From assembly GCF_003967355.1 (NCBI RefSeq), contig NZ_BIFH01000015.1, positions 190,888-254,887 on the forward strand: 64,000 bases of DNA, in the 5' to 3' direction. The notes under the pieces are model-generated. The model was given only the letters and a program-made list of their open reading frames with translations. It was not told the origin of the DNA and did no database searches. This document shows, piece after piece, positions 1 through 24,100 of the stretch. The position numbers were made by a program, and so were the translations under genes. Positions within the stretch are counted from its first letter, which is position 1, and each line of letters begins with the position of its first letter. Source of the stretch: Embleya hyalina. GTDB taxonomy: Bacteria > Actinomycetota > Actinomycetes > Streptomycetales > Streptomycetaceae.

Positions 1-1
1 G

Positions 2-40
2 GCGCTCGTCGCCGCGAAGGTCAGGCAGGTCACGCGCTAG
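2..40 (+). CDS. C-terminal end of a truncated upstream gene (probable phage protein)
   Basis: Reading frame 2 is open from the window edge and ends at a TAG at 38-40, giving only about a dozen residues. It runs in the direction of the tail genes that follow, so the last residues of a head-tail connector or gp10-like protein are a reasonable guess from phage gene order. The fragment is too short to identify. The TAG and the antisense stop of the next gene share the palindrome CTAG. Confidence 0.3.
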   Translation, partial: ALVAAKVRQVTR

Positions 41-555: not shown

Positions 556-595
556 CGACACACGCTAAGCGACGCGCACGCCGAGGGAGGTTCCT

Positions 596-1018: not shown

Positions 1019-1028
1019 GGAGGCACCC

Positions 1029-1481
1029 ATGAGCCAGCGACCCATCGACGCGAGAGGCTGGGTCTACCAGGTCGAGAGCGTGCCGGACACGTGGCTCGAC
1101 ATCACCCACGTCAACTCGTTCACGTACAACCCCGGCGAGAACGAAGAGACTGCCGAGACGACCTGGTTCGGGTCGGACGGCTACTACGAGGAAGACGTGA
1201 TGCAGAGGGGGGCGAGCCTGTCCCTGGAGGGTCAGCACGCCACCGACAGCGTCACCGGTGCCCAGGACCCGGGTCAGGCGTACATCGACAACGTTTGGGC
1301 GCTGGGCCTCGGTGTCGCCTCCCACAACCGCTTCAGGTTCAGGCACGAGACCCAGACGTCCTGGGTCGTGTGGGATGCCACCATGAGCCCCGGGGAGAAG
1401 GGCGGCGGCAACAACGACAAGTCGTCCTGGTCCGTAACTATCCGACGCTCCGGTGCCCCGATGACTATGGTCGTCGCATGA
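1029..1481 (+). CDS. Phage major tail tube protein
   Basis: A 150-residue protein with the ribosome binding site GAGGAGG about 6 bp before ATG 1029. It sits between the terminator and the chaperone pair, where siphoviruses place the major tail (tube) subunit, and it has the length and Thr/Ser/Gly-rich beta character of that family. The protein would polymerise into the hollow tube through which DNA passes. It overlaps the next start (ATG 1478) by 4 bp, so the chaperone is probably translated by coupling. Confidence 0.7.
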   Translation: MSQRPIDARGWVYQVESVPDTWLDITHVNSFTYNPGENEETAETTWFGSDGYYEEDVMQRGASLSLEGQHATDSVTGAQDPGQAYIDNVWALGLGVASHNRFRFRHETQTSWVVWDATMSPGEKGGGNNDKSSWSVTIRRSGAPMTMVVA

Positions 1482-1915
1482 GCGAGCACGTACAGCCTTT
1501 GGAGGCCGAGGACTTCGATGCGTGGGTCTCCGAGACCAACGCGAACATCCGGCCCGCGAGCATCAAAATCGGTGGGACGGTACACGTCATGCCGGTTGGC
1601 GTTCCGATTGCCTTCACGCTCCAGACCCGGCGCTTGGCCGACCGCGAGGACGTCGGCGCGCTGCGGACCATCCTGGTACCCATCTTCGGCGAACAGGCCC
1701 TCGACGCCTGGGAGTCGACGAGTCCATTCGGTACCGAGGCACTGCCGGTTCTGTTGCGCTGGTGTGGCGCGAACATGGCCAAGCCCGGCTCGATGAGCAT
1801 CGCCGAGGCCGCCGCGTCGGTCGAAGAGGACGACGCGGGAAAAGCCCCGAAGAACAGGGCCGAGAAGCGAGCCGCCGCCAAGAAGACCAAGAGTTCTGGC
1901 AAGCGGTCCTGACCC
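1478..1915 (+). CDS. Tail assembly chaperone, short form (gpG-like)
   Basis: A 144-residue protein whose ATG overlaps the tail-tube stop. The C-terminus is strongly basic and alanine/lysine rich. It occupies the slot of lambda gpG, which coats the tape measure protein during tail assembly and is lost from the mature tail. A perfect slippery heptamer, GGGAAAA, lies in frame at 1837-1843 (codons G GGA AAA), so a fraction of ribosomes should shift -1 and produce the longer G-T form. Frame arithmetic confirms that the downstream open frame is exactly the -1 frame. Confidence 0.75.
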
Positions 1916-2118
1916 ACTGGCGCGTAGTTGAGGCCGATCTCCGACGCGAGTACGGCCTCGATCCGCATGCCGTACGGCGCCTGACCACACGCGAGTTCGG
2001 TGTCTGTCTCGGCGGCCTGTCCGGCGACGCCCTGTTCCGCGAGGCATGGCGCCGCACCCCGCGGCGGGTCGTCGACCCGGCGGAGATCGCAGCGATCACC
2101 GGCATCCCCAGCACCTGA
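1478..2118 (+). CDS. Tail assembly chaperone, frameshifted long form (gpGT-like)
   Basis: The product of -1 frameshifting at 1837-1843: about 122 residues shared with the short form followed by about 91 residues from the -1 frame (1843-2118). The added part contains FWQAVLTHW and a helical arginine-rich stretch, typical of the T domain that binds tail tube subunits. Lambda-like siphoviruses need a fixed ratio of G to GT. The T domain has no good start of its own before the slip site. The tape measure gene follows 26 bp later, the usual order. Confidence 0.72.
1837..1843 (+). promoter_or_regulatory. Programmed -1 ribosomal frameshift site GGGAAAA
   Basis: In the zero frame of the short chaperone the bases read G GGA AAA, an exact X XXY YYZ slippery heptamer. 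Slipping back one base continues with AGC CCC GAA and enters an open frame that runs to 2118. This is the standard way phages make the GT chaperone. A downstream stimulatory hairpin was not worked out. Confidence 0.8.
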
Positions 2119-2144
2119 CGCAGCACCACGGGAGGTGACGACCC

Positions 2145-4853
2145 GTGGCGTTGAACGTGGGCGAACTCGTCGGGTTTGCCAGCCTGGACACGCGCGACCT
2201 GGACCGCGGCGCCGGTCACGTCACGGCCGTAATGCAGGGTCTCGCGGGTGACGTGACCCGCACGTCCGAGCAGGCCGGTACGGGCGCCGGGCAGGGCCTG
2301 ATCGGGCGCCTGGTCGACCAGATTCGGGCGGGCGCCGCCTCGGCAGTGCAGAGCCTGGCGAACGTGCTCGCGCCCGGGTCGACGCAGGCCGGCAACCAGG
2401 CTGGCGACGCCACGGCCGCCGCGCTCCAGGCCCAGCTCGACGCCGGCGCCCGCCAGGCCGGGGCGAGTGCAGGCAACGCGCTCGACGCCTCCCTGACCTC
2501 CGGCGCTCGGCAGGCCGGCGACCAGGCGGGCAACGCTGGCGGCGACGCGCTCGGCAACAGCCTGGAGGCCGAGGCCGACCAGGCGGGCGACGCCGCGGGC
2601 GAGGCAGCGTCGGGCGGGCTGAAGACCAAGCTGGTCGCCGGCGCCGCGGTCGCCGGCGTCGCCGCCGGGGCGGCCCTGTTCAAGGGCATGTCCGAGGCGA
2701 TGGACCAGGAGAAGGCGAACGACGTGCTCGCCGCCGAGCTGGGCGCATCGCCCGAGATGGCACGCGAGTTCGGCGGCATCGCCGGCCATCTGTTCAGCCG
2801 GGCATACGGCGAGAACATCACCGAGGTCAACGACGCGTTGCGCGGCGTGTGGTCCCAGGGCCTGGTCGACGAGGACGCGGCGGGCGCCGACATCGAGCGG
2901 GTCACGGCGCGGGCGATGGACGCGACCACGATCCTGCGCGAAGACATCGGCAAGACGACGTCGACCGCCGGTCAGATGATCAAGACCGGCATCGCCAAGA
3001 ATGCCGAGGAGGCATTCGACATTCTCGTTCGAGGCGCCCAGCAGGGCGTCAACAAGAGCGAGGATTTGCTGGATACCTTCAACGAATACCCCACGCAGTT
3101 CCGGAAGTTGGGGCTCGATGCGACAACCGCGATGGGCCTGCTCAGTCAGGGGCTGAAGAACGGCGCGAGGGACAGCGACCTCGTCGCCGACGCGCTCAAG
3201 GAATTCTCGATCCGCGCGATCGACGGCAGTAAGGGCGCCTCGGACGCGTACAAGGCCCTCGGCTTGGACGCCGAGGCGATGACGGCAAAGATCGCCCGCG
3301 GCGGCCCGGAAGCGTCCGCCGGCCTGCAAACCGTCCTCGACAGGTTGCGGGCCATGAAGGACCCGGTGGAACAGAACGCCGCCGCCGTGGGCCTGTTCGG
3401 CACCCAGAGCGAAGACCTGGGCAAGGCGTTGTACGCGCTCGATCCGTCCACAGCCGTGGCCGCCATGGGTGATGTGGCCGGCGCTGCCGACCGGGCGGGC
3501 AAGACCTTGCACGACAACGCCAGCACCAAGATCGAGGCGTTCAAGCGCAAGTTGACCCAGGCGTTCGTCGAGACGTTGGGTGACAAGGTGCTGCCGCGCG
3601 CCGAGGACTTCGCGCGGGCGATGAAGGACAAGTTCGGGCCGTCCGTGCGTGATGCCGGACGGTGGGTGCGGGACGACCTCATGCCGGTCCTGCGCGACAT
3701 TGCGGGCTGGCTCAATGACCATGTCGTTCCGGCAGCGGTCACCACAGGGCGCGTGATCAAGGACGACGTCGTACCGGCGCTGAAGGACGCGAAGACCTGG
3801 GTCGAGAACAACAAGGAACCGCTGCTCGCCGTCGCTGGCATCATCACGCTGTTCCTCCTGCCCGCGATGGTCGCGGCCGGTGTCGGTGCCACGGTGAGCG
3901 CGGCCACGCAGGTGACCGCGTGGGTGCTGACCCGCACGACCGCGACTACATCGGCCATCACTTCGGCTGCTGCCCACTGGACGACGATCGCGGGCTGGGT
4001 CGCAGCCGGCGCGGCGGCCACCTGGAACGCGGCGGTCATCGTGGCCGGTTGGGTTCTGATGGGCACTCAGGCGCTGATCCGCGGCGCGCAGATGGCGGCG
4101 GCCTGGATTCTGGCGATGGGTCCGATTGCGTGGGTGACGGTGGCGATCATCGCCATCGCCGCGCTGGTCATCTACTACTGGGACGAGATCGTCGCGGGTA
4201 CGAAGCGGGCCTGGTCGTGGGTGACCGGCAGCGTGGCTGCGGCCTGGCAGTGGATCAAGGACACCGTGGCGTCGGGCGGCCGTTGGGTCTCGGACAAGAC
4301 ATCCGACATGGCATCGGCCGTAACCGGGTTCTTTGGGTCGATGGTGACCGGAGCGCAGGACAAGGGACGCGCGCTGGTCGACTGGCTGCGCGGTCTCCCG
4401 GGGGACATGCTGCGGGCGCTCGGCGACCTCGGACGGCTGCTCTGGGATGCCGGCACCAAGGTCATGCAGGGCCTGCTCGACGGCATCAGTTCGAAGGTCA
4501 GCGCGGTGAAGAGTCTGCTGTCGAACATCACGGACATGATCCCGTTCTCCAAGGGTCCGCCCGTGAAGGACGCCAAGCTGCTGACTCCGAACGGCAAGCT
4601 GATCATGGCCGGACTCATGCGCGGCATCGACTCGCAAACCCCCGCGCTGCGGGCCCAGTTGGCGGGCCTGACCGCGTCGATGCCGTCGATGGCGGCGCCG
4701 CCGCCGCGGATCGCCTCGGTCGGCGGCACCACCCCGGTCGCCGCGGACCGCACGGGCCCGATGGTGCAGATCAACGGCGGATGGCACTCGGGCGGCGAAT
4801 CACCCGATCAGCTCGCCGCCGCGCTGGACTGGCAGATGCGCGGACGGGGGTGA
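2145..4853 (+). CDS. Phage tape measure protein
   Basis: A 902-residue protein, the largest of the phage block, starting at GTG 2145 behind GGAGGTGA (2131-2138). The first 180 residues repeat Ala/Gly/Gln/Asp units such as AGDQAGN, forming a long helical rod. A middle part resembles the phage tail tape measure core (about 230-470). Two strongly hydrophobic stretches follow at about 555-590 and 640-675, the latter preceding tryptophan-rich segments. Tape measure proteins set tail length and help DNA cross the host membrane. The predicted rod fits a moderately long flexible tail. Confidence 0.9.
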   Translation: MALNVGELVGFASLDTRDLDRGAGHVTAVMQGLAGDVTRTSEQAGTGAGQGLIGRLVDQIRAGAASAVQSLANVLAPGSTQAGNQAGDATAAALQAQLDAGARQAGASAGNALDASLTSGARQAGDQAGNAGGDALGNSLEAEADQAGDAAGEAASGGLKTKLVAGAAVAGVAAGAALFKGMSEAMDQEKANDVLAAELGASPEMAREFGGIAGHLFSRAYGENITEVNDALRGVWSQGLVDEDAAGADIERVTARAMDATTILREDIGKTTSTAGQMIKTGIAKNAEEAFDILVRGAQQGVNKSEDLLDTFNEYPTQFRKLGLDATTAMGLLSQGLKNGARDSDLVADALKEFSIRAIDGSKGASDAYKALGLDAEAMTAKIARGGPEASAGLQTVLDRLRAMKDPVEQNAAAVGLFGTQSEDLGKALYALDPSTAVAAMGDVAGAADRAGKTLHDNASTKIEAFKRKLTQAFVETLGDKVLPRAEDFARAMKDKFGPSVRDAGRWVRDDLMPVLRDIAGWLNDHVVPAAVTTGRVIKDDVVPALKDAKTWVENNKEPLLAVAGIITLFLLPAMVAAGVGATVSAATQVTAWVLTRTTATTSAITSAAAHWTTIAGWVAAGAAATWNAAVIVAGWVLMGTQALIRGAQMAAAWILAMGPIAWVTVAIIAIAALVIYYWDEIVAGTKRAWSWVTGSVAAAWQWIKDTVASGGRWVSDKTSDMASAVTGFFGSMVTGAQDKGRALVDWLRGLPGDMLRALGDLGRLLWDAGTKVMQGLLDGISSKVSAVKSLLSNITDMIPFSKGPPVKDAKLLTPNGKLIMAGLMRGIDSQTPALRAQLAGLTASMPSMAAPPPRIASVGGTTPVAADRTGPMVQINGGWHSGGESPDQLAAALDWQMRGRG

Positions 4854-4857
4854 CGGA

Positions 4858-5724
4858 ATGGCCGGCGAGTTCGTCACCGGACCGGGACTGATCCAGTTTC
4901 GTGACCTGGTCCTCGGCCCGGATCCGCTGCGCTGGCGCGGCCTGGAGGGGTGGCAGGAACTGCCGTCCTCCGACGACGCGTCGGCGCCACGGTCGGGTCA
5001 GCACGGGACGTTGCCGGGACCGCTGCTCGCGCAGGCCCGCACGGTCACCCTCGACGTCCTGATGCGCGTGGCCGGCGATCCGGGGGCGGTGGTCGATCGG
5101 ATCGAGCGCGCCACAGCACTCGTCGACGACGAGACCCCGCTGGTCGTGTGGCTCGATTCGCGCGGGCCCCGAATGGTGTTCGGCCGGGTGGTCCGGTGCC
5201 GGATCCCGGTCGACCGCGCGTACCGGATCGGGACCGTGGTCGGCATCCCGATTCAGTGGTCGTGCTCGGACCCGCGCCGGTACGGACTCGCGGAACAGTC
5301 TGCCGTCACCGGCCTGCCTCAGGCGGAGGGCGGGTTGACGTTCCCGTTGACGTTCCCGCTCGACTGGGGCACGCCGGCCGTCTCCGGCACCCTCACGGCC
5401 GTGAACTCCGGCTACGCGCCGACGAGTCCGATCGTCGAGTTCGTCGGGCCGGTCGACACGCCGGCGATGGTGCGCCTGTCCGACGGTACGCGCCTGGAGT
5501 ACGACCTGGTGCTGGGCGCGGGCGAAACCCTCACCGTCGACACACGCTCTCAGTCGGTGCGCCTGGCCGGCGCCGACCGGTTGTACACGGCTACCAGCCG
5601 CTCCGTGCCGGAGGAGTGGTTTCGCCTCGAACCCGGAGCAACGGACCTGGCGTTCAGGGCCGCGCCCGGTTCGACCGATCCCGCCGCGTCCATGACGGTG
5701 CGCTGGCGGTCTGCCTACTGGTGA
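4858..5724 (+). CDS. Phage distal tail (Dit-like) protein
   Basis: A 288-residue protein starting 5 bp after the tape measure stop. The order tape measure, then a roughly 290-residue protein opening with a phage tail family pattern (GLIQFRDLVLGPDPLRW, then TVTLDVLMR), matches siphoviral distal tail proteins of Streptomyces phages. These form the ring at the tail tip that carries the receptor-binding proteins. The C-terminal part is beta-rich (YSY-like galectin fold expected). Evidence is family resemblance and position. Confidence 0.7.
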   Translation: MAGEFVTGPGLIQFRDLVLGPDPLRWRGLEGWQELPSSDDASAPRSGQHGTLPGPLLAQARTVTLDVLMRVAGDPGAVVDRIERATALVDDETPLVVWLDSRGPRMVFGRVVRCRIPVDRAYRIGTVVGIPIQWSCSDPRRYGLAEQSAVTGLPQAEGGLTFPLTFPLDWGTPAVSGTLTAVNSGYAPTSPIVEFVGPVDTPAMVRLSDGTRLEYDLVLGAGETLTVDTRSQSVRLAGADRLYTATSRSVPEEWFRLEPGATDLAFRAAPGSTDPAASMTVRWRSAYW

Positions 5725-5737
5725 CCTGGAGGTCAGC

Positions 5738-6814
5738 GTGACTGTACGTGTGAGTTGGCTGTACCCGTCGCCGGCGGGTCCCGCCGGCGGGCAGTCCCGC
5801 GAGGACACCCGGCTCAGCCCGATCGGCACGATGTGGCCGACCGGCCCGACGACGACCCGGTCCGGCGTGATCCCCGGCGGGTCGCCGCTGGCGCTGTCCG
5901 GGTCCGGCATGACGGCGACGATCGGCCTCGGGCGGGCGGTTGTGCAGGGCACGGCGGCCCAGGGTGCCTATGCCGCCGCCGTGACCGCGCCGCATGCGGT
6001 GACCCTGGCCAATGGGCACGCCAGCCTGCCGCGGATCGACGTGATCGCACTGCGCGTGTACGACACGGTGTACGACGCGTCCGGGCAGAGCATCGGTGAC
6101 GTCGTCGTTGTGAAGGGCACGGAAGCGGCATCGCCGACGGCGCCCGCGATGCCGTCGCCCACGACCATGCCGCTGTACCAGATCACCGTCCCGGCCGGTG
6201 CGAGCGCGGGCACGGGCGGTCTGACGTGGGGCGGCGCCACCGACCTACGAGTCTGGACCGTCGCCGCCGGCGGGGTGCTTCCCGACCCGGCCGGGACGGC
6301 ACCCGGTGGCCACACCGACCAGCTCCGTATCCGCGCGGGCCGCATCGAGCGGTGGACCGGGTCGGCCTGGACCGAACTGGACCTGCCGTCGCTGCTGGCC
6401 GCGAGTACCTGGGGTGCCTGGACGGCGTATACGCCGACGTGGACGGCACAAGGGGGGTCAACGGCGCTCGGGACGGGGGGCTCGATCAGCGGCGCGTACT
6501 GCCGGACCGGGCGGATGATCACAGCCCGGATCGCGATGAAGATCGGCACGTCCGGATACTCCGGCGGGACCGGGTCGTGGAGGTGGTCCCTGCCCGTGAC
6601 ACCGGTCCTGCCCGCCGGGGCGCTGATGCCGTCCGGGATCGCACATGGTCAGGACGCTGGGGTTGCCAACTACACCGGCGTCGCGGATCTCACGTCGTCC
6701 GGTATCGAGATCTCCTCCCACACGGGGATCGCTCCCTGGAACCCCACGTTGCCGTTCACCTGGGGCGTAAACGATCTGGTCGGCATCCAGGTGACCTACG
6801 AGGCCACATCGTGA
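5738..6814 (+). CDS. Phage minor tail / tail-tip protein
   Basis: A 358-residue protein from GTG 5738, 13 bp after the distal tail gene. It is rich in Gly, Thr, Ala and Pro, with repeated beta-like segments and a tryptophan-bearing stretch near residues 190-230 (VWTVAAGGVLPDP and RIERWTGSAWTEL), a pattern seen in baseplate or fibre-base proteins of actinophages. It probably contributes to adsorption. The stop overlaps the next start as GTGA. Confidence 0.55.
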   Translation: MTVRVSWLYPSPAGPAGGQSREDTRLSPIGTMWPTGPTTTRSGVIPGGSPLALSGSGMTATIGLGRAVVQGTAAQGAYAAAVTAPHAVTLANGHASLPRIDVIALRVYDTVYDASGQSIGDVVVVKGTEAASPTAPAMPSPTTMPLYQITVPAGASAGTGGLTWGGATDLRVWTVAAGGVLPDPAGTAPGGHTDQLRIRAGRIERWTGSAWTELDLPSLLAASTWGAWTAYTPTWTAQGGSTALGTGGSISGAYCRTGRMITARIAMKIGTSGYSGGTGSWRWSLPVTPVLPAGALMPSGIAHGQDAGVANYTGVADLTSSGIEISSHTGIAPWNPTLPFTWGVNDLVGIQVTYEATS

Positions 6815-7911
6815 CGGCCGCCTATCGCGTGCTTTTCACCGACCTCCGCAGCGACCAGGTCCTGGACGCGATCCCCGTCGATGGCATGTCCTTCGACGAC
6901 TACATCGGCAAGTCGGGCAGCCTGCGGGCGTCGATCCCGGTCACGTCGGCGGAGATGGCGCGCCGCGTGCAGCTGCTCGTACCGGCCCGCACAGCAGTGT
7001 GGGTGTACCGCGGCGGCCAGGTCTGGTGGGGCGGCATCGTGTGGCAGGCCACGCCGACGGTCGGCGACCGCGGCGCGGCGGCCTATTCGATCCAGGCCGC
7101 GACGTGGGACAGCTACCTCGACCGGCGCGTCCTGATGACCACGTACGAGACCCCGCCGGGCGGCGTCGACCAGCTGGACATCGCGCGCGAGCTGGTCGCG
7201 TACACGGCCGAGCAGCCGGGCGGGGACATCGGCATCACCATCGACTACGGCCAGGTGTCCGGGATCGTTCGGGACCGGACGTACAGCCGGTACGACCAGC
7301 CGCGCATCCGGCAACTGCTCGACCAACTCGCGGCCGTGCAGGGTGGGTTCGAATGGCGAATCTCCAGCGAACTCGACGAGTTCGGCGCCCGAGTCAAACG
7401 GCTTGTCCTCGGCTATCCGAGGATCACCGCCGGGTCGACCGACGTGGTCCTGGACTACCCGGGGCCGATCCGGGTGTACTCGGATCCGGAGGACGGCGGC
7501 GGCCGCGCGACGCACTGGCAGAGCCGCGGCGCGACGACCAACCGCAACCAGGCCGCCGACTCGAACCCCATGCTGACCGACGTCCAGGAGGTCGCCGGCG
7601 CGATCGACGCCGGGTGGCCGCGGCTCGACGGCACCAGCGACCACACCACCGTCGAGGACCCGGCGACCCTGCTCGGGCACGCCCAGGCCGACCTCGGCCG
7701 GGCCTGGACGCAGACCACGATCCCCGAGATCACCATCACCCCGGGCGACCGCCTGTCGCCGGCGATGCTCGGCGCGACGGTGCGGGTGCGCCGCCGGGAC
7801 CTGTGGCACCCGGCCGGCGACGACCGCCGGTACCGCGTGGTCGGCATGTCCGTGACCCCACCGACCCGATCAAGCGGCGAGACCGCGAGGTTGTTCCTGG
7901 AGGCCGCCTGA
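6811..7911 (+). CDS. Phage tail-tip protein, Gp37-like
   Basis: A 366-residue protein starting at GTG 6811, which overlaps the previous stop by 4 bp; the same frame is open far upstream, but only this start fits the coupled arrangement. The sequence (AAYRVLFTDLRSDQVLDAIPV, later VWVYRGGQVWWGGIVW) resembles the Gp37-like / minor tail proteins of Rhodococcus and Streptomyces siphoviruses, related to the gp27-type tail hub. It would form part of the cell-puncturing tip. It ends at TGA overlapping the next ATG. Confidence 0.6.
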   Translation: MTAAYRVLFTDLRSDQVLDAIPVDGMSFDDYIGKSGSLRASIPVTSAEMARRVQLLVPARTAVWVYRGGQVWWGGIVWQATPTVGDRGAAAYSIQAATWDSYLDRRVLMTTYETPPGGVDQLDIARELVAYTAEQPGGDIGITIDYGQVSGIVRDRTYSRYDQPRIRQLLDQLAAVQGGFEWRISSELDEFGARVKRLVLGYPRITAGSTDVVLDYPGPIRVYSDPEDGGGRATHWQSRGATTNRNQAADSNPMLTDVQEVAGAIDAGWPRLDGTSDHTTVEDPATLLGHAQADLGRAWTQTTIPEITITPGDRLSPAMLGATVRVRRRDLWHPAGDDRRYRVVGMSVTPPTRSSGETARLFLEAA

Positions 7912-8636
7912 TGCCCGCGATCCCCACCGATCTGCTCGACCGGATCCGGCGCCTGGAGGACGCCGTTCGTATCCTCGCCGGCCGGGCCAACATCCGGCCG
8001 GCGCTCGACGAGATCCTGGCCGGCCGGGTCCGGATCGGCGAGGGCGGCACGCTGTGGGTCGAGGCCCCCAACGGCGAGGTCGTCCTGGCCACCGGGTTGT
8101 ACGCGGCCGGCAAATACGGCGTGTACGCGGGTAGGTCCGAGGGCAGCGGGGCCGCCCTGGTGATCGGCGGCGAGGACGCCGGCATTCCCCAGATGATCCG
8201 GATCTTCCCTCGGCCGGCGGGTCACGGGGCGATCGTGATGGACGACGCGACCGACGACGGCTGGCTGGGCCGGCCGTGGCTCCCGTACCCACTGCCGGCG
8301 TCGGTGTTCGCAACCGACTGGCCGTCGACCACGGGCGGTTCGTGGGGCGCGGTGTCCAGGTCGTACGCGCCTCGGCAGCACTCACACATCGTGGTGTTCG
8401 GAAGCGCCTACGCCGACACCGGTACGAGCGGGCAGATGCGGCTGGTCATCAACGGCACCCAGTACGGACCCACCGTGACGGCACCGAGCGGGGGTTTCGG
8501 GTCGCTGGATTGGCGCGGCCCGCTCGGTGCGGGCGCATGGGGCGATCTGCTGACGATCGAGGTCCAGTGCCAACGCACCGGGGGCGGCGGATCCGTGTAC
8601 GCCCATCTGTCCGAACTGTACGGAGTGAACTCGTGA
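7911..8636 (+). CDS. Putative tail fibre or tail-associated protein
   Basis: A 241-residue protein starting at ATG 7911 inside the previous stop. A short helix with a heptad-like pattern (LLDRIRRLEDAVRILAG, about 6-23) is followed by beta-rich, glycine-rich sequence, the layout of a trimeric fibre or its attachment domain. No enzymatic motif is visible. Host-receptor binding is inferred from position after the tail-tip genes. It ends overlapping the next GTG. Confidence 0.5.
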   Translation: MPAIPTDLLDRIRRLEDAVRILAGRANIRPALDEILAGRVRIGEGGTLWVEAPNGEVVLATGLYAAGKYGVYAGRSEGSGAALVIGGEDAGIPQMIRIFPRPAGHGAIVMDDATDDGWLGRPWLPYPLPASVFATDWPSTTGGSWGAVSRSYAPRQHSHIVVFGSAYADTGTSGQMRLVINGTQYGPTVTAPSGGFGSLDWRGPLGAGAWGDLLTIEVQCQRTGGGGSVYAHLSELYGVNS

Positions 8637-8818
8637 GCACCGAGCCCGAGCCCGACATCGATCCTCGGCCGGCCGTCCCTCGTGCCGTCCCGACCGCGCA
8701 TCCCGACCCCCGCGCCGGCTGCGGCGCGCCGCTCGACCCGCCCGAGGCCCCCTCGGCGTCCGATCCCCCCGACCCGGTGCTGCCGCAACCGGCCGCGACC
8801 CCCCAGGAGGCACCCTGA
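8633..8818 (+). CDS. Small proline-rich phage protein
   Basis: A 61-residue open frame from GTG 8633, overlapping the stop of the fibre gene by 4 bp and ending at TGA 8816-8818, which overlaps the endolysin ATG. More than a quarter of its residues are proline, with many Asp, Glu and Ala. The tight coupling on both sides supports translation. The function is unknown; it may be a linker or a chaperone for the fibre or lysis genes. Confidence 0.45.
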   Translation: MSTEPEPDIDPRPAVPRAVPTAHPDPRAGCGAPLDPPEAPSASDPPDPVLPQPAATPQEAP

Positions 8819-9567
8819 TGGCCTGGTATTCCGGCGCCACGAAGCGCGAGCTGCAACCCGAGTCCGATGCCCAACCGGTCATCCGCCCCACGCAGTTGAT
8901 CCTGCACTCGATCGCCGCGCCGTGGTCCGGTGAGCGGATGTACGAGTACTGGCGCGACTCGACCAACCTCGAATCCCACTTCGGCTGCGCGTACGACGGC
9001 GGCCTGTTCCAGTTCGTCGGCACCGAGACCCGCGCCGACGCGAACGCGTCGGCGAACCGGCGGGCCGACGGCACCGGGGCGGTCAGTGTCGAGACCGCGT
9101 CCAACCTGGAGCACACCGATCCGTGGACCGACGCCCAGGTCGCGAGCCTGATCCGGCTCGGGGTGTGGATGCACCAGCAGCATGGTGTGCCGCTGCGGAT
9201 CTGCCGCACCTGGGACGACCCCGGGTTCGGCTACCACCGCTTGTTCGTCCAGTGGTCCGTCGGCGGCACCGCGTGCCCCGGCGACGCCCGGGTGCGGCAG
9301 TTCCGCGACCAGATTTTTCCGGGCATCGTCGCGCGCGCGACCGGTGCCACCAACCCCCAGGAGGACGACATGCCCAGTGCTCAGGAGATCGCCGCCGCTG
9401 TGTGGGCGTTTACCGTCCCGAACGAGGCGGCCAACGACGCGCCCGTATCGACCGGCACGATCATGGAGTGGCGGGACGAGCAGACGCTGGAGACGTGGCG
9501 GCGGATCGACAAGCTCACCGCCGCCGTGACCGAGCTGACCGCCGAGGTCAAGAAGGGACGGGCGTGA
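8818..9567 (+). CDS. Phage endolysin, N-acetylmuramoyl-L-alanine amidase (PGRP/amidase_2 type)
   Basis: A 249-residue protein. The N-terminal 175 residues carry the zinc ligands expected of the amidase_2/PGRP fold: His30 in LILHS, His140 in GFGYHRLF and Cys153 in TACPGD. This enzyme splits the amide bond between muramic acid and the stem peptide. The remaining residues form a linker and a coiled-coil-like C-terminus (about 200-245) that could bind the wall or oligomerise. There is no signal peptide, so release depends on a holin, consistent with the membrane proteins that follow. The start overlaps the previous gene's stop. Confidence 0.85.
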   Translation: MAWYSGATKRELQPESDAQPVIRPTQLILHSIAAPWSGERMYEYWRDSTNLESHFGCAYDGGLFQFVGTETRADANASANRRADGTGAVSVETASNLEHTDPWTDAQVASLIRLGVWMHQQHGVPLRICRTWDDPGFGYHRLFVQWSVGGTACPGDARVRQFRDQIFPGIVARATGATNPQEDDMPSAQEIAAAVWAFTVPNEAANDAPVSTGTIMEWRDEQTLETWRRIDKLTAAVTELTAEVKKGRA

Positions 9568-9827
9568 TGGCCATCTCCGGCGCGAATCGGCGGATGATCC
9601 GCACGTCGGTGCAGTGGGTGATCTCGGCCGCCGCTGCGGCGCCGCTGATCGTCGATGCGTCCGGGATTCCGGAGGCGACGCCGGGTGTTGCTGTGGGCCT
9701 GGCGGTCGCTGCTGGCCTGACCCGGGTGATGGCCCTGCCGGCGGTCGATCGGCTGCTGCCGTCGTGGCTGCGGGCGGTCGACCCGCGCGCCGACATACGG
9801 CCGGCGCTGGACGGGAGGCGCGAGTGA
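9567..9827 (+). CDS. Putative holin
   Basis: An 86-residue protein starting within the endolysin stop codon (TGATG). It has a short basic N-terminus, then two hydrophobic stretches at about 14-30 and 38-58, and a charged C-terminus, the layout of a class II holin. A hole-forming membrane protein directly after the endolysin is the normal lysis cassette. Holins are too divergent to assign by sequence alone. Confidence 0.6.
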   Translation: MAISGANRRMIRTSVQWVISAAAAAPLIVDASGIPEATPGVAVGLAVAAGLTRVMALPAVDRLLPSWLRAVDPRADIRPALDGRRE

Positions 9828-10105
9828 CGACGCCCACCGCACTACCCGACCCGGCCGCGTCCGGCTCGGTGTCCGTCGCCCTCGAACTCGCCGAGCTGCG
9901 GCGGTCGGTCGACGTCGGCAACGCCACCGTCCAGGGCCAACTCGCCCTGTTGGTGCAGCGGACGGACCAGACCGATCGGCGGATGGAGGATCACGAGTCC
10001 AGGCTGGACGCGCTGGAGCGCAACCGCTGGCCTCTGCCCAGCATCGCGGCACTGTGCGGCGTCGCCGGCTTGGCGGTGGCCGCATGGCAGGCCACCGGCC
10101 GCTGA
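9824..10105 (+). CDS. Small coiled-coil membrane protein (DUF2746-like, second lysis protein)
   Basis: A 93-residue protein from GTG 9824, sharing GTGA with the previous stop. Residues 20-65 form an amphipathic helix (SVALELAELRRSVDVGN, then QTDRRMEDHESRLDALERNR), followed by one transmembrane helix near the C-terminus (PSIAALCGVAGLAVAAW). Actinophages often carry such a DUF2746-type protein beside the holin, where it may tune lysis timing. This is the last plus-strand gene of the phage block. Confidence 0.55.
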   Translation: MTTPTALPDPAASGSVSVALELAELRRSVDVGNATVQGQLALLVQRTDQTDRRMEDHESRLDALERNRWPLPSIAALCGVAGLAVAAWQATGR

Positions 10106-10119
10106 CCGCGCACGACAAC

Positions 10120-10147
10120 GGCCCGCCCCTCATCTCGGGGGCGGGCC
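10120..10147. terminator. Bidirectional hairpin terminator at the end of the phage block
   Basis: A perfect 10-bp stem, GGCCCGCCCC with GGGGCGGGCC, and an 8-base loop, 15 bp after the last phage stop and 18 bp before the stop of the convergent minus-strand gene. There is no long T-run, as is usual in high-GC actinobacteria. It would separate the two opposing transcripts. Confidence 0.75.
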
Positions 10148-10164
10148 GGCTTCGTCGTGTCCGG

Positions 10165-10809
10165 CTACCGGTCGGTGTTGTCGCCGCGGACCAGCCGCCG
10201 GTAGGCCCTGGCCTCGGCCGCCGCCGAGGTGGCCGGCCCGGCGGTGATCGTGTTGATCAGCGCGGTGCGCATCGTGGCCACGGCGGCGGCCGGTGGCGTG
10301 GCGGTGCCCGCCGTCAGAACGATGTCGGCGGCCCGCTCGCGGCTGATGCCGGCGATGCGGGCGAGGGCGGGGACCGGGACACCGGCCGCGTGCGCGGCGG
10401 CGATGGCGGCGTGGGTCGCCGGGTGGGCGGTGCCGTGCGCGCGTGCCGCGTCGGCGACCGCGTCGAGGGCCTGGCTGCGGTGGGTGCTCACCGGGTCGAC
10501 GACCTGGCGGCGGCTGGGACGGGTGACGTCGCGGTGCCGTTGCAGGAGTACGGCGACGGCTCGGACCGTGGTGCGTGTCGTCGCGGCGATCTCGGGCGTC
10601 GGCACGTGGTGTTGGTGCGCGTCGATGATGGTGGCGTGCAGGAGCGCGGCGGCGGCGCGCAGGGCGAGCCGGCAGCGGCGGCGCTCGTCGACGGTCTCGG
10701 CCGCCGCCAGGTCCCGCGCCATCTCGGCGCGGGTGGCAGCAGCGGCGGCCAGGTGTTCGAGCACGGCCTTGCGCGCGCGGGCCTGGTCGACGGCCGCCGC
10801 CCGGGTCAC
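10165..10809 (-). CDS. Hypothetical helical protein with HTH-like segment
   Basis: A 214-residue protein beginning at GTG 10809, which overlaps the stop of the upstream minus-strand gene by a few bases, so the two form an operon. It is Ala/Arg/Thr rich and nearly all helical. The stretch GVPVPALARIAGISRERAADIVL near residue 155 looks like a helix-turn-helix, and THRSQALDAVADAARAHG is a second helical module. No catalytic residues are evident. It could be a DNA-binding protein of the integrated element, or host accessory DNA. Confidence 0.55.
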   Translation of the reverse strand: MTRAAAVDQARARKAVLEHLAAAAATRAEMARDLAAAETVDERRRCRLALRAAAALLHATIIDAHQHHVPTPEIAATTRTTVRAVAVLLQRHRDVTRPSRRQVVDPVSTHRSQALDAVADAARAHGTAHPATHAAIAAAHAAGVPVPALARIAGISRERAADIVLTAGTATPPAAAVATMRTALINTITAGPATSAAAEARAYRRLVRGDNTDR

Positions 10810-11399
10810 CGGTCCGCCGCCCGGGTCGCGACGTGCCGCGCGATCTCGCGGTCGGCGAGCGCCGCCCGAATGCCCTCGCTGTCGAGCCAGCCGCCGATGC
10901 GGTCGTGCAGCGCGGCGACCTGGTCGATGCTGTAGCCGGTGACGGGCGCCGGGTCGAGGCACAACCGCGGCTCGGGCACGGTGCCGGTGGGGATCAGGTC
11001 CAGGCGGTGCCGGGCGATGTCGTCGAGGAGGATCTTGCGGTGGTGCTCCTGCAAGTTGATGATCCCGCGCGGCTCCGGCTGGTCGCCGTCGATGGCGGAG
11101 ATGTACAGCCGCAGCCGGAGGCCGGTGCCCTCTCGGTGTAGGCGGGCCCGGCAGGGTGGGCGGTCCTCCGGGCGCGGCGGCCGGAGGAGCGTGCCCGCGA
11201 GGATGCCGACGTCGGCGTCGGAGAGGTGGAACGCGGCGCGCTCGTAGGCGGGGACCGCTGCCGCCGCGGGCGCCGTCGGTCCCGCGCTGAGGGCGGCGAA
11301 CACGTCCAGGCGCCACGGCCGAGGGTGGTCGGCGGGTTCGAGGTGGATGCTCCAGGCGGCCAGCGACACGGTCACGGGTGCTGCCTCGACGTCGGTCAT
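10806..11399 (-). CDS. Hypothetical protein, first gene of a two-gene minus-strand operon
   Basis: A 197-residue acidic-to-neutral protein of unknown family starting at ATG 11399. It contains segments such as YISAIDGDQPEPRGIINLQEH and a C-terminal helix (GIRAALADREIARHVATRAADR). I do not recognise a domain. Codon usage is as GC-biased as the phage genes. It is followed with overlap by the HTH-like gene. The pair points back toward the phage block and may be the last accessory genes of the prophage. Confidence 0.5.
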   Translation of the reverse strand: MTDVEAAPVTVSLAAWSIHLEPADHPRPWRLDVFAALSAGPTAPAAAAVPAYERAAFHLSDADVGILAGTLLRPPRPEDRPPCRARLHREGTGLRLRLYISAIDGDQPEPRGIINLQEHHRKILLDDIARHRLDLIPTGTVPEPRLCLDPAPVTGYSIDQVAALHDRIGGWLDSEGIRAALADREIARHVATRAADR

Positions 11400-11666
11400 G
11401 CGGGCTCCAACGCGGTGTGGGTAACGCGGGGCGGGGCCGGTGCCGCCATCGGGGCGGCGCGGGTAGACCTCCAGCGGTCGGGCCCCGCCGGCCCCGCCTC
11501 GCGGGTGGCCCGGCCCGGCGGCATCTCACGGGCAGTGGTCGCCGCCGGGCCGGGGTCTCGGGAACGCACTCCAGGCGAACTCACCCAAAGATCGCGGAAC
11601 GCTGCGTAGCGCGCGATACCCAGCCGGTAATCTCACGGTGATATAGCCAACCACCGAGGACCACCA

Positions 11667-12512
11667 TTGAGCCTGTTGCCGATTTCGTTACCTGACTCGG
11701 TCTGGCAGAGGGCCGACCTTCGCGAGGCACTGCGGGCCCGTGATGTCGGTCGACTGTTCAGGTACACCCAGCAGTTCAGCGGCGCCAGCCAGGCCCGCAT
11801 CGCCTCGGCCGTGGATATGGCCCAAGGCCGCGTGAACGAACTCATCAAGGGTCGACGCACGGTTCGCGAACTCGACGTATTCGAACGAGTTGCCGACGGT
11901 CTGACCATGCCGGACGATGCCCGGCACCTCCTCGGCCTGGCCTCGCGCCGTGAAGCCCGCGGCGGCGGCCGAGCGTTCGATCTGTCCGCCTTCCCGGAGG
12001 TCGTGCGCGTCTTCACCGAACAGGCCGCCGCAGCCGACGAGATCCAACGGGCAGCCCGAACGGCCGACGAACTGGATGTACTGGCGGTGCGGGGTCTGGG
12101 CCTGATCGGCCTGAACGACTCGTTGCTACGGAGTTCCTTAACTCGACCGGACGGGGAACGCCTGCGCCTGCGCGTTCTCCTTCTCGATCCGGAGTGCTCG
12201 GCGCTGGCTGATCGAGCGGCGGAGATCGGTGAATCCGCAGAGAGCATGGCCAACGGAGTGCGTCTCACCGCAGCTCGGCTACGCGATCTGGTCGACGTGT
12301 GTGACGTCCAGGTGCGCTGGTACCGGTCGCTGCCTACATGGCGCCTGATCCGAGTCGGGAAGGTCGTCTACGTGTCCGCTTTCGACTCAGGTTGGGAGGG
12401 CCACGAATCGGCGCTGTACAAGGTCATGGAGACGCCATACGGGCCCCTGTATCGGGGGTTTCGCCGTATGTTCAACGGACTCATGGACGACGGTGCGCTG
12501 TTGCCCGCCTGA
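11667..12512 (+). CDS. XRE-type regulator with C-terminal DUF5919/PLD-like domain; two TTA codons
   Basis: A 281-residue protein starting at TTG 11667 with ribosome binding site CGAGGA (11655-11660). Residues 27-65 form a lambda-type helix-turn-helix (ASQARIASAVDMAQGRVNEL). The C-terminal half (about 150-275) has LRLRVLLLDPEC, LPTWRLIRVGKVVYVSAF and EGHESALYKV, a pattern like the DUF5919 or inactive phospholipase-D-like sensor domains fused to XRE regulators. Leu8 and Leu158 are both encoded by TTA (11688-11690 and 12138-12140), so translation should require the bldA tRNA encoded 770 bp away. It is 15 bp upstream of, and probably co-transcribed with, the CYTH gene. Confidence 0.7.
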   Translation: MSLLPISLPDSVWQRADLREALRARDVGRLFRYTQQFSGASQARIASAVDMAQGRVNELIKGRRTVRELDVFERVADGLTMPDDARHLLGLASRREARGGGRAFDLSAFPEVVRVFTEQAAAADEIQRAARTADELDVLAVRGLGLIGLNDSLLRSSLTRPDGERLRLRVLLLDPECSALADRAAEIGESAESMANGVRLTAARLRDLVDVCDVQVRWYRSLPTWRLIRVGKVVYVSAFDSGWEGHESALYKVMETPYGPLYRGFRRMFNGLMDDGALLPA

Positions 12513-12527
12513 CTGGGAGGACACCTG

Positions 12528-13091
12528 ATGATCGAGGCAGAACTGAAGGCCCGCGTGCGCGATCCGGAACACGTCCTCGACGCCCTGGAGAAGTTCGCGG
12601 CCGGACGCCCCGAGGTCTACCAGGACACGTACTACGACGACCCCGAACGCACGCTCACTGCCGGAGACCGCGAGCTGCGGATCAGGACCGTACACGGAGC
12701 CGAGACCATCTCGGTGATGACGTACAAGGGCGCACGGGTTGACGAGGCATCCGGATCGAAGCCGGAGCACGAGACTCGCGTCGAGGACGCCGCGGCCGCT
12801 CATGCCTTGCTGCGTGGCCTCGGGTACACGCCGACGATCGAGTTCGAGAAGCGCTGCCGAAACTACGACTTTGAGCGGGACGGACGCCAACTGCTTGCCA
12901 CGCTCGTGCGCGTCCCCGAGTTGGACGAGACCTTCATCGAGATCGAAACCCTGGTCGAGGCCGACCATCAGGTCGCAGGCGCCCTGACCGCGGTGCGCGA
13001 GGTGCTGGAGGGTCTTGGGATCGGTAACGATGCGTTGACCACGGAGCTGTACACGGATGCCGTAGCCGCCCGACGCAGGGACGTGCGATAG
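12528..13091 (+). CDS. CYTH-fold protein, class IV adenylate cyclase-like (CyaB type)
   Basis: A 187-residue protein with a good ribosome binding site (GGGAGGA) before ATG 12528. It opens with the CYTH signature ExExK (Glu3, Glu5, Lys7), and further charged beta-strand motifs follow (RELRIRTV, MTYKGARVD, FEKRCRNY, TFIEIETLV), as expected for a triphosphate tunnel fold. Family members include class IV adenylate cyclases, thiamine triphosphatases and tripolyphosphatases; substrate cannot be told from sequence. The pairing with an XRE/DUF5919 regulator suggests that the product or substrate is a signal for that regulator. Confidence 0.8.
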   Translation: MIEAELKARVRDPEHVLDALEKFAAGRPEVYQDTYYDDPERTLTAGDRELRIRTVHGAETISVMTYKGARVDEASGSKPEHETRVEDAAAAHALLRGLGYTPTIEFEKRCRNYDFERDGRQLLATLVRVPELDETFIEIETLVEADHQVAGALTAVREVLEGLGIGNDALTTELYTDAVAARRRDVR

Positions 13092-13206
13092 CGCCGCCGA
13101 TGGATCCGATCGAAATTTCTATGGGCGATAGCGCCACCTTCACATGCGGAACCGGAGTTCCGGGTGGTGCACAGGGGGTGACAAACAATGATCTTGGTTC
13201 GCTCAT

Positions 13207-13236
13207 CCGTTGACAGACCCGCACTTCTGTCAACGG
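13207..13236. promoter_or_regulatory. Perfect 10-bp inverted repeat between CYTH gene and bldA
   Basis: CCGTTGACAG (13207-13216) and CTGTCAACGG (13227-13236) are perfect inverted repeats around a 10-base spacer. It lies 116 bp after the CYTH stop. It may act as a terminator for the plus-strand pair (no T-run is seen) or as a protein-binding site such as a recombinase core. Confidence 0.5.
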
Positions 13237-13246
13237 CAGCGATCAT

Positions 13247-13276
13247 GAAAATGGCTCCTTAGCAGGTCAGAGCCAT
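13247..13276 (-). terminator. Intrinsic terminator of the bldA transcript
   Basis: Read on the minus strand, ATGGCTC pairs with GAGCCAT around a 12-base loop and is followed by TTTT, a classical intrinsic terminator beginning about 8 bp beyond the 3' end of the tRNA. Confidence 0.7.
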
Positions 13277-13283
13277 GATCATC

Positions 13284-13368
13284 TGGTCCCCGGAGCGGGA
13301 CTCGAACCCGCACGACCTTGCGGCCAAGGAGGTTTAAGCTCCTCGTGTCTGCGTTCCACCATCCGGGG
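13284..13368 (-). tRNA. bldA: tRNA-Leu(UAA), bldA type, CCA encoded
   Basis: On the minus strand the 85 bases fold as a class II tRNA: acceptor CCCCGGA with TCCGGGG, D arm starting GTGGAACGCAGACAC, anticodon stem AGGAG/CTCCT with loop CTTAAAC, a long variable arm (GGCC GCAA GGTC) typical of tRNA-Leu, T arm GCGGG-TTCGAGT-CCCGC, and an encoded CCA. The anticodon is TAA (13334-13336), which reads UUA. In streptomycetes the single tRNA reading UUA is bldA, a developmental switch that permits translation of rare TTA-containing genes late in growth. The window contains such TTA genes close by. Confidence 0.95.
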
Positions 13369-13929
13369 GCGATGCTGAGCGTAGCGGCCCCGGCGCACCG
13401 GGTTGACCCCCTGAATTTCACGGCCTCGCGAACGGCTCGCGGCGACCCGTTCGATCGCGGAGAGCGACGGGAGGTAACCCGTCCCGATGCCGTACGGATG
13501 ATGCCGAATGGGCGCTTTGAGGCGCCTGATCAGGGGATATACCGCATTCGGCCGGGCCTGCGCGGTACCCGTGGTCGCGTCGGGAGTCCCGCTTCGGGTC
13601 GGCCGGCGGGCGGCCGGCGACCGGCCGCCGGAGGTGCGCGAGACCCCCGTCGGCACCGTCTGATTCGATCGATTTCGACCATGAATGAGCGAAACCGACG
13701 AAGAGTGAGTAAGTGTGATCAGACGTCCTGGATCATGCGCAGTCTTGTGGAAGCGTGGGTAGGCAGCACGAATCGGAACGGTTCCGTCGCCCGACGTGGC
13801 CACCGATGAAACAGGCGACGACCCGCCCACGAATCGCGTCCGACGAACCGCCGCACGCGACGCCCCGACGAGCCGCTCGACGAACCGCCCGAGGAACACC
13901 CGAGGAACACCCGAGGAAAGAGGTCTCCT
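13369..13929. other. Intergenic region between bldA and the ABC ATPase gene
   Basis: About 560 bp upstream of both bldA (minus) and the ABC gene (plus), so it must hold their promoters; a TACGCT on the minus strand near 13378-13383 is a possible -10 box for bldA. Just before the ABC start an 11-bp unit, CCCGAGGAACA, is repeated in tandem at 13888, 13899 and (partly) 13910. No convincing gene is present. Confidence 0.5.
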
Positions 13930-14706
13930 GTGACCGCCACCGAACCCAGCGCGGGAGTCGGGACGCACGGCGCGCTCGCCGCCGTCGCCACCGACCTGAC
14001 CAAGGTCTACGGCGAGGGCGAAACGCGGGTGATCGCGCTCGACGGCGTCTCGGTCGGCTTCCGGCGCGCGGAGTACACCGCGATCATGGGGCCCTCCGGG
14101 TCGGGCAAGTCCACGCTGATGCACTGCATGGCGGGGCTCGACTCGATCACGTTCGGCTCGGTGCGACTGGGCGACGCGGAGTTGTCCACGCTGAACGACA
14201 AACAACTCACCCTGCTCCGCCGGGAGAAGGTCGGTTTCGTCTTCCAGTCGTTCAACCTGCTGCCCACGCTCACCGCCCTGGAGAACATCACGCTCCCGAT
14301 GGACATCGCGGGGGTCAAGCCCGACAGGGCCTGGCTCGACCACGTGATCGAGACCGTGGGGTTGCGCGACCGGCTCAGGCACCGCCCCACCGAACTCTCC
14401 GGCGGCCAGCAGCAGCGTGTCGCGTGCGCCCGCGCGCTGGCGAGCAAGCCGGAGATCATCTTCGCCGACGAGCCGACCGGCAACCTCGACTCGCGCTCCG
14501 GCGCCGAGGTGTTGGGCTTCCTCCGCAGCAGCGTCTACGACCTGGGCCAGACCATCGTGATGGTCACCCACGACCCGAACGCGGCCTCCTACGCGGACCG
14601 CGTGGTGTTCCTGGCCGACGGCCGGATCGTCGACGAGATGACCGCGCCGACCGCCGACCTGGTCCTGGAACGCATGAAGCGCTTCGAGGCACAGCGCACG
14701 AGCTGA
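13930..14706 (+). CDS. ABC transporter ATP-binding protein, LolD/MacB type, without adjacent permease
   Basis: A 258-residue ATPase from GTG 13930 (GAGG box upstream). Walker A is GPSGSGKST at 54-62, the signature LSGGQQQRV starts at 156, and Walker [14 protein letters not shown] at about 176 is the LolD/MacB variant. Such ATPases drive FtsX-type permeases that export or extract lipids, peptides or drugs. In related actinobacteria the FtsX/MacB-like permease normally follows directly; here a terminator hairpin and the opposing ndh gene follow instead. Confidence 0.9.
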
Positions 14707-21191: not shown

Positions 21192-24100
21192 GTGTTGGTA
21201 TCCGGCGAACCGCTCACCCCCGACTCGCAGCCTCGCGGCCTGATACCGGGCGACTGGGAGGTGTTACAGGCGCTCGCCGACGTGCTGACCCGGTTCTCGG
21301 CGCAGGCGCTGGAGGCCAAGGGCCGGCTCGGCAAAATCGAGGGCAGGGACCTCTGGCAGGGCGACGCGGCGGAGGGCTTTCGCAAGGACCTCGGGATCGT
21401 CACCGAGATCCTGGGCCTGCACGGAAAGGAATACCCGAGCGTCGCCGCGAAGTTGCGCGAGTTCGCCGAGGTGTTGCGGTTCGCCCAGGGCGAGTGCGCG
21501 AACGAGATCATCCCCAAGGCGAAGCAGGCGTTCTGGCTGATCGAGGCGCAGGCGCGCGAGCAGGAGTCGTACGACCTCGCCAAGCGCGCTCAGGATGTGC
21601 GGAAGGCCGACGGCGTCGGCAAGGAGTGCCTGCCCGCGCTGCCGCACAAGCCCGAGGGCCATCCGGGCGCGGACATGTTGCGCGAGGCGCAGGCGCAGTT
21701 GCAGCGGGTGCGCGAGCGGGTGGAAAAGGCCGACGCGCACGCGCTGTTGGAACTACGCAAGTCCCGTGGCGTCCTCGACCTCGACCCGGACATGTGGAAG
21801 ACACTCCGCCAGGCCGGGATCGATTTCGCCCAGGGCGCCGCCGGCGGGGTCTTCGAACTCGCGAGCTTCGCGTGGACGATCGACCCGGGTCGGATCTTCG
21901 TCGACCCGATCGCGTACGCCACCGACCTGAAGGGCATCGCGGGCGGCATGCTCGGCATCGCCCGGGACCCGGTCGGGTTCGCCCAGGACACGGTCGTCAC
22001 GTCGTGGGAGGACTTCAAGAAGAACCCGGCCCGCTGGCTCGGCCACGCGGCACCCGACCTGGCCCTGACGCTGGCCACGCGCGGCGGCAACAAGGCGCTG
22101 ACGCCCGCCCAGCAGGTCGAGAAGAACATCGCCAAGCGGGACAACCCGCGTTGCCGGGCCGCGGAGGCGTGCACGCGCGAGGGCGAGCCGATCGACGTGG
22201 TCACCGGCGAGATGGTGCTGCCGCAGACCGACGTGACACTGGCGGGCGCGCTGCCGCTGGTGCTGGAGCGACACCACCGGACGGCTTTCGGCGGGGGCCG
22301 GTTCTTCGGTACGCGGTGGGCGTCGACGTTGGACCAGTGCGTGCGTCTGGGCGCGGATCGGGTCACCTTCACCGCCGCCGACGGGATGACGCTGCGCTAT
22401 CCGGTGCCGAGGCCGGGCGAGGCGGTGCTGCCGATGGGCGGATACCGGTGGCCCCTGGTGTGGGACGGCACCGGCACGTTCACGGTCACCGACCCGCGGC
22501 GGGGGTGGACGTGGTCCTTCGCGGCGCTGCCGGGCCCGGCATCGCGCCGAATACCGGTGCGGGCGCTGGCGGATCGCAACGGGAACCGCGTCGACTACCA
22601 CTACGACGCCGAGGGTGTGCCGCGCGAGGTCACCCACTCGGGCGGCTACCGGGTGGCGGTCGACTCGGCGGAGGGGCTGATCACGGGGTACCGCTTGCTC
22701 GGCGCGGACCCGCTCACCCACACGAGCACGGCCGACCCGGCGGCCTCCGTCGACCTCGTCACCTTCACCCACGACGCCCCCGGCAACCTCACCGAAGTCG
22801 TCAACTCCTCCGGCCGCCCCCTGCGCTTCACCTACGACGCCCACCACCGCATGACGTCCTGGACCGACCGCAACAACACCTGGTACCAGTACGAATACGA
22901 CGGGGCCGGCCGCTGCGTACGCGGCTCCGGCATCAACGGCGTCCTGGACAACACCTTTGCCTACGACGAGGCATCGCGGATCACCAGGATGACCGACGCC
23001 TTGGGCGCCGTCCGCACCTACGAATACAACGACTGGTCGCAGGTCATCCGCGAAACCGACCCCCTCGGCGGCACCAGGCTCACCGAATGGGACTCCTACA
23101 ACCGCCGAGTGGCCGTCACCGACGAACTGGGCCACACCACGCGGTACTCCTACGACGCGTGGGACAACACCATCGGCGTAGTCCTCCCCAACGGCACCTT
23201 CACAGTCGCCGACCACGACCCGCTCCTGTGCCGCCCAACCCGCATCACCGCCCCGGACGGCGAAGTCCGCCAACACACCTACGACAGTCGCGGCAACCTC
23301 CTCACCACCACCGACGAACTCGGCGCGACCACATCCCACACCTACAACGAGTCCGGCCACCTCACCAGCATCACCAACGCCCTGGGCCACACCACAACGC
23401 TCACCCCCAACCCGGCCGGCCTGCCCATAGCGGTAACCGACCCCCTGAACGCCACCACACACATCACCCACAACGCCTTCGGCCGAACCACCACCCTGAC
23501 CGACCCCCTCGGCCACACCACCAAAACCACCTGGACTGTGGAAGGCAAACCGGCGTTGCGCGAACGTCCCGACGGCACGAATGAATCCTGGACCTGGGAC
23601 GGGGAGGGAAACCTTCGCCACCACGTCAACCCGGCAGGCTTCACCACGTCCTACGAGTCCACCCACTTCGACCTGCCGGCGGTCCGAACCGGCCCGGACG
23701 GCGCACGACTGGAATTCACCTACGACGCCGAACTCCGCCTCACCGAAGTCACCAACCCACAGGGCCACACCTGGCGCTACACCTACGACCCGGCAGGCCG
23801 TCTCGCCGCCGAGACGGACTTCAACGGCCGAGGGTTGACCTACCACTACGACGCAGCCGGTCGGCTGATTCGACACAGGAACGGCGCGGGAGAAATCACC
23901 ACGTACACCCGCGACGCCACCGGCTGGGTCACTTCTCAGCGACACGTCGCAACACAACACGAAACGAATTACCACTTCGACGCCGCCGGCCGCCTGATTC
24001 GGGCTATCGCTCCGGAGGCGGATCTGGTCCTCACCTACGACGCCCTCGGCCGCATCACGGCCGAGACCACCAACGGCCGTACGTTGTCCAACGTGTACGA

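Follow-up and report, generated by a model that had tools for sequence, protein, structure and literature searches.

The bldA Locus and Its Neighbours

The window, the whole stretch of 64,000 nucleotides that was analysed, contains an intact bldA gene on the reverse strand (13284–13368), detected by ARAGORN and encoding tRNA-Leu(UAA), a developmental checkpoint tRNA. On its 5′ side lies a chromosomal gene for an ABC transporter ATPase (13930–14706, +) that flanks bldA family-wide; this conserved abc-bldA linkage is usually extended by a BI-1-like gene, abc-bldA-BI-1 being the commonest order, with the BI-1 gene at ≤1 kb in 47 of the 80 bldA loci surveyed. Here the 3′ side carries two forward-strand genes, encoding an XRE regulator (11667–12512) and a CYTH-domain protein (12528–13091), and bldA is found on the opposite strand 771 bp past the stop codon of the former, matching the spacing of about 770 bp given in a sequence-only reading of this DNA. 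The same reading regarded bldA as the only tRNA able to read UUA and was right for the assembly, a draft about 98% complete, in which no second tRNA-Leu(UAA) occurs; in fact, among the 61 tRNA matches in 12.05 Mb, the 10 other tRNAs with a long variable arm were all typed and none is UAA. Rfam reported bldA in the genome search but, at the gathering threshold, not in the scan of the window.

The Prophage and Its Attachment Site

A search of the genome with its own tRNA gene located a second, partial copy of this gene 37.6 kb to the left of bldA, outside the window. A 49-bp direct repeat, GCAGGTCAGAGCCATGATCATCTGGTCCCCGGAGCGGGACTCGAACCCG, is present as attR (13262–13310, corresponding to C15:204149–204197) and, with 100% identity, as attL (C15:166522–166570), and 27 of its 49 bp belong to the 3′ end of bldA; the repeat was not seen in a repeat search of the window alone, attL lying outside it. 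The two copies delimit a complete siphovirus prophage of 37,627 bp (C15:166522–204197), recognised by phage gene matches, direct repeats, and an empty site, whose right-hand part occupies positions 1–13310 of the window. A tyrosine integrase (Pfam 4e-22) begins 154 bp inside attL and is followed by a nearby excisionase, and family matches between the repeats identify virion genes (terminase, portal, capsid, tape measure, and tail) and replication and lysis genes (SSB, DnaB-like helicase, and an amidase endolysin) together with other phage genes. In particular, the window includes the tail tape-measure protein (2145–4853, +; PhageMin_Tail 2.6e-22, PHROG tape measure) and the endolysin (amidase_2; 8818–9567, +; family matches). 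An integrase beside one att site, virion genes, and identical repeats overlapping a tRNA 3′ end are the marks of a prophage at a tRNA gene.

Two small overlapping genes on the reverse strand (10165–10809 and 10806–11399) separate the XRE-CYTH cargo from the lysis genes; they are known from gene calling, and their sole family match is a weak one to an HTH. A divergent HTH protein (C15:168350–168802, i.e., L004:8350–8802, −) is encoded between integrase and excisionase and is the likely immunity repressor; the XRE cargo regulator is therefore probably not the lysogeny switch. Among isolated phages, the portal protein has its nearest relatives in Streptomyces phages, with Raleigh and Picard as examples (52–54%). 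IMG/VR already holds this provirus (IMGVR_UViG_2868451029_000001, L156; integrase 100% identical), as a 36.3-kb prediction (C15:165370–201696) with gene-snapped ends that omits the XRE regulator, the CYTH gene, and attR and takes in the chromosomal BI-1 gene.

In a sister species (G004) the site is empty, as seen at base resolution: the left flank runs directly into the right one, and the two overlap by exactly 49 bp. In this species about 320 bp separate bldA from the BI-1 gene, and neither the XRE nor the CYTH gene is there. The suspicion that the regulator belongs to an acquired cassette is thus supported, since its gene is part of a prophage with attL and attR as its limits and with an empty counterpart in a related genome. 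The sequence shows that a siphovirus inserted at the 3′ end of bldA and brought the XRE regulator as cargo; the regulator very probably neighbours bldA because the prophage that carries it uses this 3′ end as its attachment site, and bldA is whole after the insertion because the 49-bp att core restores the tRNA end.

Recurrent Integration at bldA

A related prophage, with an integrase 81% identical, occupies the same bldA site in another species of the genus (G031), with left chromosomal flank, repeat, and integrase in the same order, and integrases of another lineage, which share about 45% identity with those of the first, directly adjoin tRNA-Leu(UAA) in four further species (G297, G341, G392, and G067). 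The search of 395 family genomes, confined to these two lineages, shows bldA to be a recurrent attB, used in six species by two integrase lineages. Other integrases are found at a similar distance beside Ser, His, Ala, Met, or SeC tRNAs, and the attachment site therefore varies among lineages. The integrase lineage at tRNA-Leu(UAA) (L308, L309, L311, and L101; G392, G341, G067, and G297) is a candidate bldA-specific integration vector. Among phage genomes, none with a bldA-like attP was recognised, the matches listed consisting for the most part of tRNA-Leu genes of phages and of records without annotation.

The order of the BI-1 gene is variable in several genera, as seen in the 80-locus synteny survey, and for this reason its absence was not counted as a sign of insertion. 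A moved or inverted BI-1-like gene was observed in several lineages (L131, L216, L126, L181, L209, L210, L212, L213, and genus g3 loci). The 3′ side of bldA seems to be a variable spot, and this variability possibly reflects the scars of other insertions.

The arrangement resembles that of known tRNA-integrating phages and AICEs, which share the tyrosine integrase, an att core of 40–50 bp over the tRNA 3′ end, and the regeneration of the tRNA (PMC10865867, PMC3218068): mycobacteriophage Omega integrates at tRNA-Leu-CAA with a 44-bp core (PMC10865867), mycobacterial AICEs integrate at a tRNA-Leu (PMC3218068), and pSAM2-like AICEs are a further example. In contrast to these, the target here is tRNA-Leu(UAA), i.e., bldA, and no report of bldA as attB was found in the literature searches, whose coverage is incomplete, so that its absence is unproven. 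Integration at a tRNA gene is also common to tRNA-dependent lysogeny (Guerrero-Bustamante and Hatfull 2024, PMC10865867), in which, however, the phage brings a substitute tRNA and shares a core of about 10 bp with its host; in this prophage a 49-bp core rebuilds the tRNA, ARAGORN finds bldA intact, and the assembly has no other UAA tRNA that could act as a replacement.

The XRE-CYTH Module and Its Putative Operator

The regulator and CYTH genes are located just inside attR, at the end of the prophage away from the integrase. The regulator comprises an HTH and a PLD-like C-terminal domain; its AlphaFold model (mean pLDDT 82, pTM 0.56) shows a domain of PLD-like topology joined to the HTH, and the best Foldseek matches, TrmBL2, F13, phospholipase D, and FAM83, are weak (TM about 0.33). 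TrmB-like regulators (HTH and PLD-like ligand domain; TrmBL2, 5bpd) are the best match and share the PLD-like effector fold, but the HTH here is of the XRE type and the TM-score is low. Its partner belongs to the class IV adenylate cyclase/triphosphate tunnel family (Pfam CYTH 1.3e-21), as indicated by a TIGR00318 (class IV adenylate cyclase) score of 72.9 bits against a cut-off of 57.95, and by an invariant ExExK motif (E3-x-E5-x-K7); motif and score together place the product of 12528–13091 in the CYTH/class IV adenylate cyclase family, and an enzymatic activity is predicted. The PLD-like domain of the modelled regulator probably senses a ligand linked to the CYTH reaction.

A CYTH gene stands next to the regulator in 76 of 80 named homologous loci, and a comparison of 16 wider contexts revealed no further gene family with a constant position next to the two; XRE-CYTH is therefore a free-standing two-gene module. 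No XRE homologs were found in IMG/VR, and defence-system models gave no match for the regulator, the CYTH protein, or two neighbours. The temperate Streptomyces phage mu1/6 (S. aureofaciens) also carries the cassette as gp2-gp1, with an XRE protein at 61% and a CYTH protein at 69% and the same operator in its perfect version, and its presence there supports the presumed mobility of the cassette; mu1/6 is, however, a different phage, and its pair is without TTA codons. The mu1/6 pair is annotated only as "transcriptional regulator" and "unknown".

The candidate autoregulatory operator, ATCTCACGGTGATAT (11630–11644), is a one-mismatch version, changed in the right arm, of the family palindrome ATCTCACnGTGAGAT, which is present with ≤2 mismatches upstream of 72 of the 80 regulator homologs and takes an ATCTCAT variant in the Nocardia and Glycomyces relatives. 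With ≤1 mismatch there are two such sites in the genome, and 11630–11644 is the sole one in the window; the second (C14:140950) has no clear gene context, is at chance level, and was rejected as a real operator. Autoregulation of the XRE gene through the candidate operator is suggested by this conservation.

TTA Codons of the Regulator and of Its Family

The regulator gene encodes 281 aa from a TTG start and, as had been read from the sequence, has TTA at codons 8 (11688–11690) and 158 (12138–12140). The start is preceded by GAGGA just upstream, and the N-terminus aligns with the M-x-T-A-L-x-P-I-x-L-P of about 25 homologs; TTG is therefore a credible start and codon 8 is translated. An in-frame TTA codon behind a supported start is one mark of a bldA-dependent gene, and bldA-dependent translation of the regulator can fairly be expected from established Streptomyces biology. 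The rarity of TTA in this genome was also correctly anticipated: in 1.0 Mb of genome regions, TTA accounts for 14 of 277,098 codons and is present in 9 of 854 called genes, two or more times in 4 of these, a share that is probably somewhat higher in reality because gene calling was biased towards high GC3. The remaining 45 genes called in the prophage have none, with <1 expected from about 11,000 codons. A second two-TTA gene near bldA, 7.8 kb away on the chromosomal side, encodes an RHS/YD-repeat protein (21192–25625, +; 1477 aa, T7SS-signal-like N-terminus, Pfam RHS_repeat 5.6e-87) with TTA at codons 25 and 999.

Two TTA codons in one gene had been taken as a strong sign of bldA control, and this stands in part. 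The probability of two TTAs in 281 codons is 1e-4 at the genome-average rate, and 92% of TTA-bearing ORFs in 213 Streptomyces genomes have a single TTA (PMC10327506); on the other hand, it is of the order of 0.01 at similar GC3 (about 0.007 at the rate of genes with GC3 0.80–0.85), and about 0.03 if the rate of the regulator family itself is used. For an acquired gene with a GC3 of 0.75, when the remainder of the prophage has about 0.91, such a pair is less striking. This difference also favours a reading in which the codons have no regulatory meaning and are the residue of a lower-GC, horizontally moved gene, the regulator being made adequately whenever transcribed. Such an explanation, which agrees with the low conservation of TTA sites generally described for acquired genes (PMC10327506), is a serious possibility, although not the probable one, since the family has more TTA than composition predicts.

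In fact, TTA is found in 18 of the 80 family regulators versus 25 of 614 neighbouring genes and only 3 of 76 CYTH operon partners, and the 18 observed exceed the 4.4–5.6 expected after GC3 and Leu matching, with a P of about 1e-5 to 1e-6 that treats genes as independent, without ancestry correction, the codons falling at no fewer than about 13 distinct positions. Restricted to GC3 0.75–0.90, TTA genes are 14 of 63 regulators and 15 of 253 neighbours (P = 3e-4), so that the family is about 3–4 times as TTA-rich as its GC3-matched neighbours. A third of the family TTA positions are within the first 25 codons, and this share fits the 5′ bias of TTA in streptomycetes (PMC4255298). At the level of single positions, nearly all relatives have CTN, the more frequent case, or a codon for another amino acid in place of codons 8 and 158; conservation of a TTA among orthologs, as in adpA, is not seen in the 80 homologs, whose TTA codons are scattered over many positions. 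TTA codons are thus partly meaningful at the family level, where bldA-type control seems to have been repeatedly gained and lost, with nothing in the 80 loci to link it to physical closeness of bldA. Because TTA positions turn over, the bldA dependence of this particular regulator may be no more than incidental.

Possible Effects on bldA

The CYTH gene and bldA are convergent and about 190 bp apart, a geometry in which read-through from the XRE-CYTH operon could produce RNA antisense to bldA and lower the tRNA level in the lysogen, as a cis effect of the insertion. Between the two genes there is, however, a strong hairpin with a perfect 11-bp stem (13207–13236; RNA fold of 13092–13283, z = −3.1), possibly a bidirectional stop or insulator, and the antisense effect is judged improbable.

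A local feedback or addiction loop, in which the regulator depends on bldA and acts back on its promoter, was the interpretation originally proposed. Two TTA codons beside the sole tRNA that reads them, and a TTA-enriched regulator family, speak for it, and mutual control has a precedent in the TTA-bearing regulator AdpA (PMC4255298). In the AdpA-bldA feedforward loop AdpA synthesis is bldA-dependent, but the TTA of AdpA is conserved and AdpA activates bldA, neither of which is seen for the XRE regulator. Against the loop, none of the 80 named homologous regulator loci has a tRNA-Leu(UAA) within 6 kb, the TTA positions are not conserved, and the attachment site explains the adjacency. Moreover, the promoter region of bldA (13369–13929), where a check for regulator binding had been suggested, contains no match to the operator with up to 3 mismatches; the conserved palindrome lies at the promoter of the regulator itself and not at that of bldA, and self-regulation is therefore its best-supported role. 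Nor is there anything to make bldA dependent on the cassette, because the att core regenerates the tRNA whole. The loop is accordingly very improbable.

That the XRE-CYTH pair, conserved across Actinomycetia, is an old chromosomal neighbour of bldA beside which the prophage merely inserted is almost certainly wrong, being contradicted by the empty site of the sister species with its short bldA-BI-1 interval, by the location of both genes between the two repeat copies, and by the lack of any homolog at E 1e-20 in the sister genomes G004, G020, and G031.

Proposed Course of Events and Implications

In the preferred reading, the first step of which is evident from the sequence, the tyrosine integrase recombined the 3′ end of bldA with an attP core of 49 bp, and the 37.6 kb thus inserted now separate the tRNA gene from its usual successor, the BI-1-like gene; the core restores the tRNA, and the host keeps a whole bldA gene. 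The prophage, putatively active, carries a two-gene cargo operon for the XRE/PLD-like regulator and the CYTH enzyme just inside attR. The regulator may repress or tune its own operon through the palindrome at 11630–11644, with its PLD-like domain probably responding to a ligand connected with the CYTH reaction, and the two UUA codons in its mRNA would allow efficient synthesis only when bldA tRNA is abundant, late or during development. The position beside bldA is a consequence of the attachment site and not itself a control circuit. A further idea, that bldA is an adaptive docking site at which phages tie excision or lysogenic gene expression to bldA activity and through it to the developmental stage of the host, with a cargo regulator that contains TTA codons responding in trans to this signal as well, is speculative and unlikely.

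The analysis defines a widespread, mobile, and probably self-regulated XRE-CYTH module in which a putative operator is conserved and TTA codons recur. At least two integrase lineages at bldA place phages physically at a developmental checkpoint, and attachment at this gene gives an easy test of whether lysogeny has an effect on bldA expression and sporulation.
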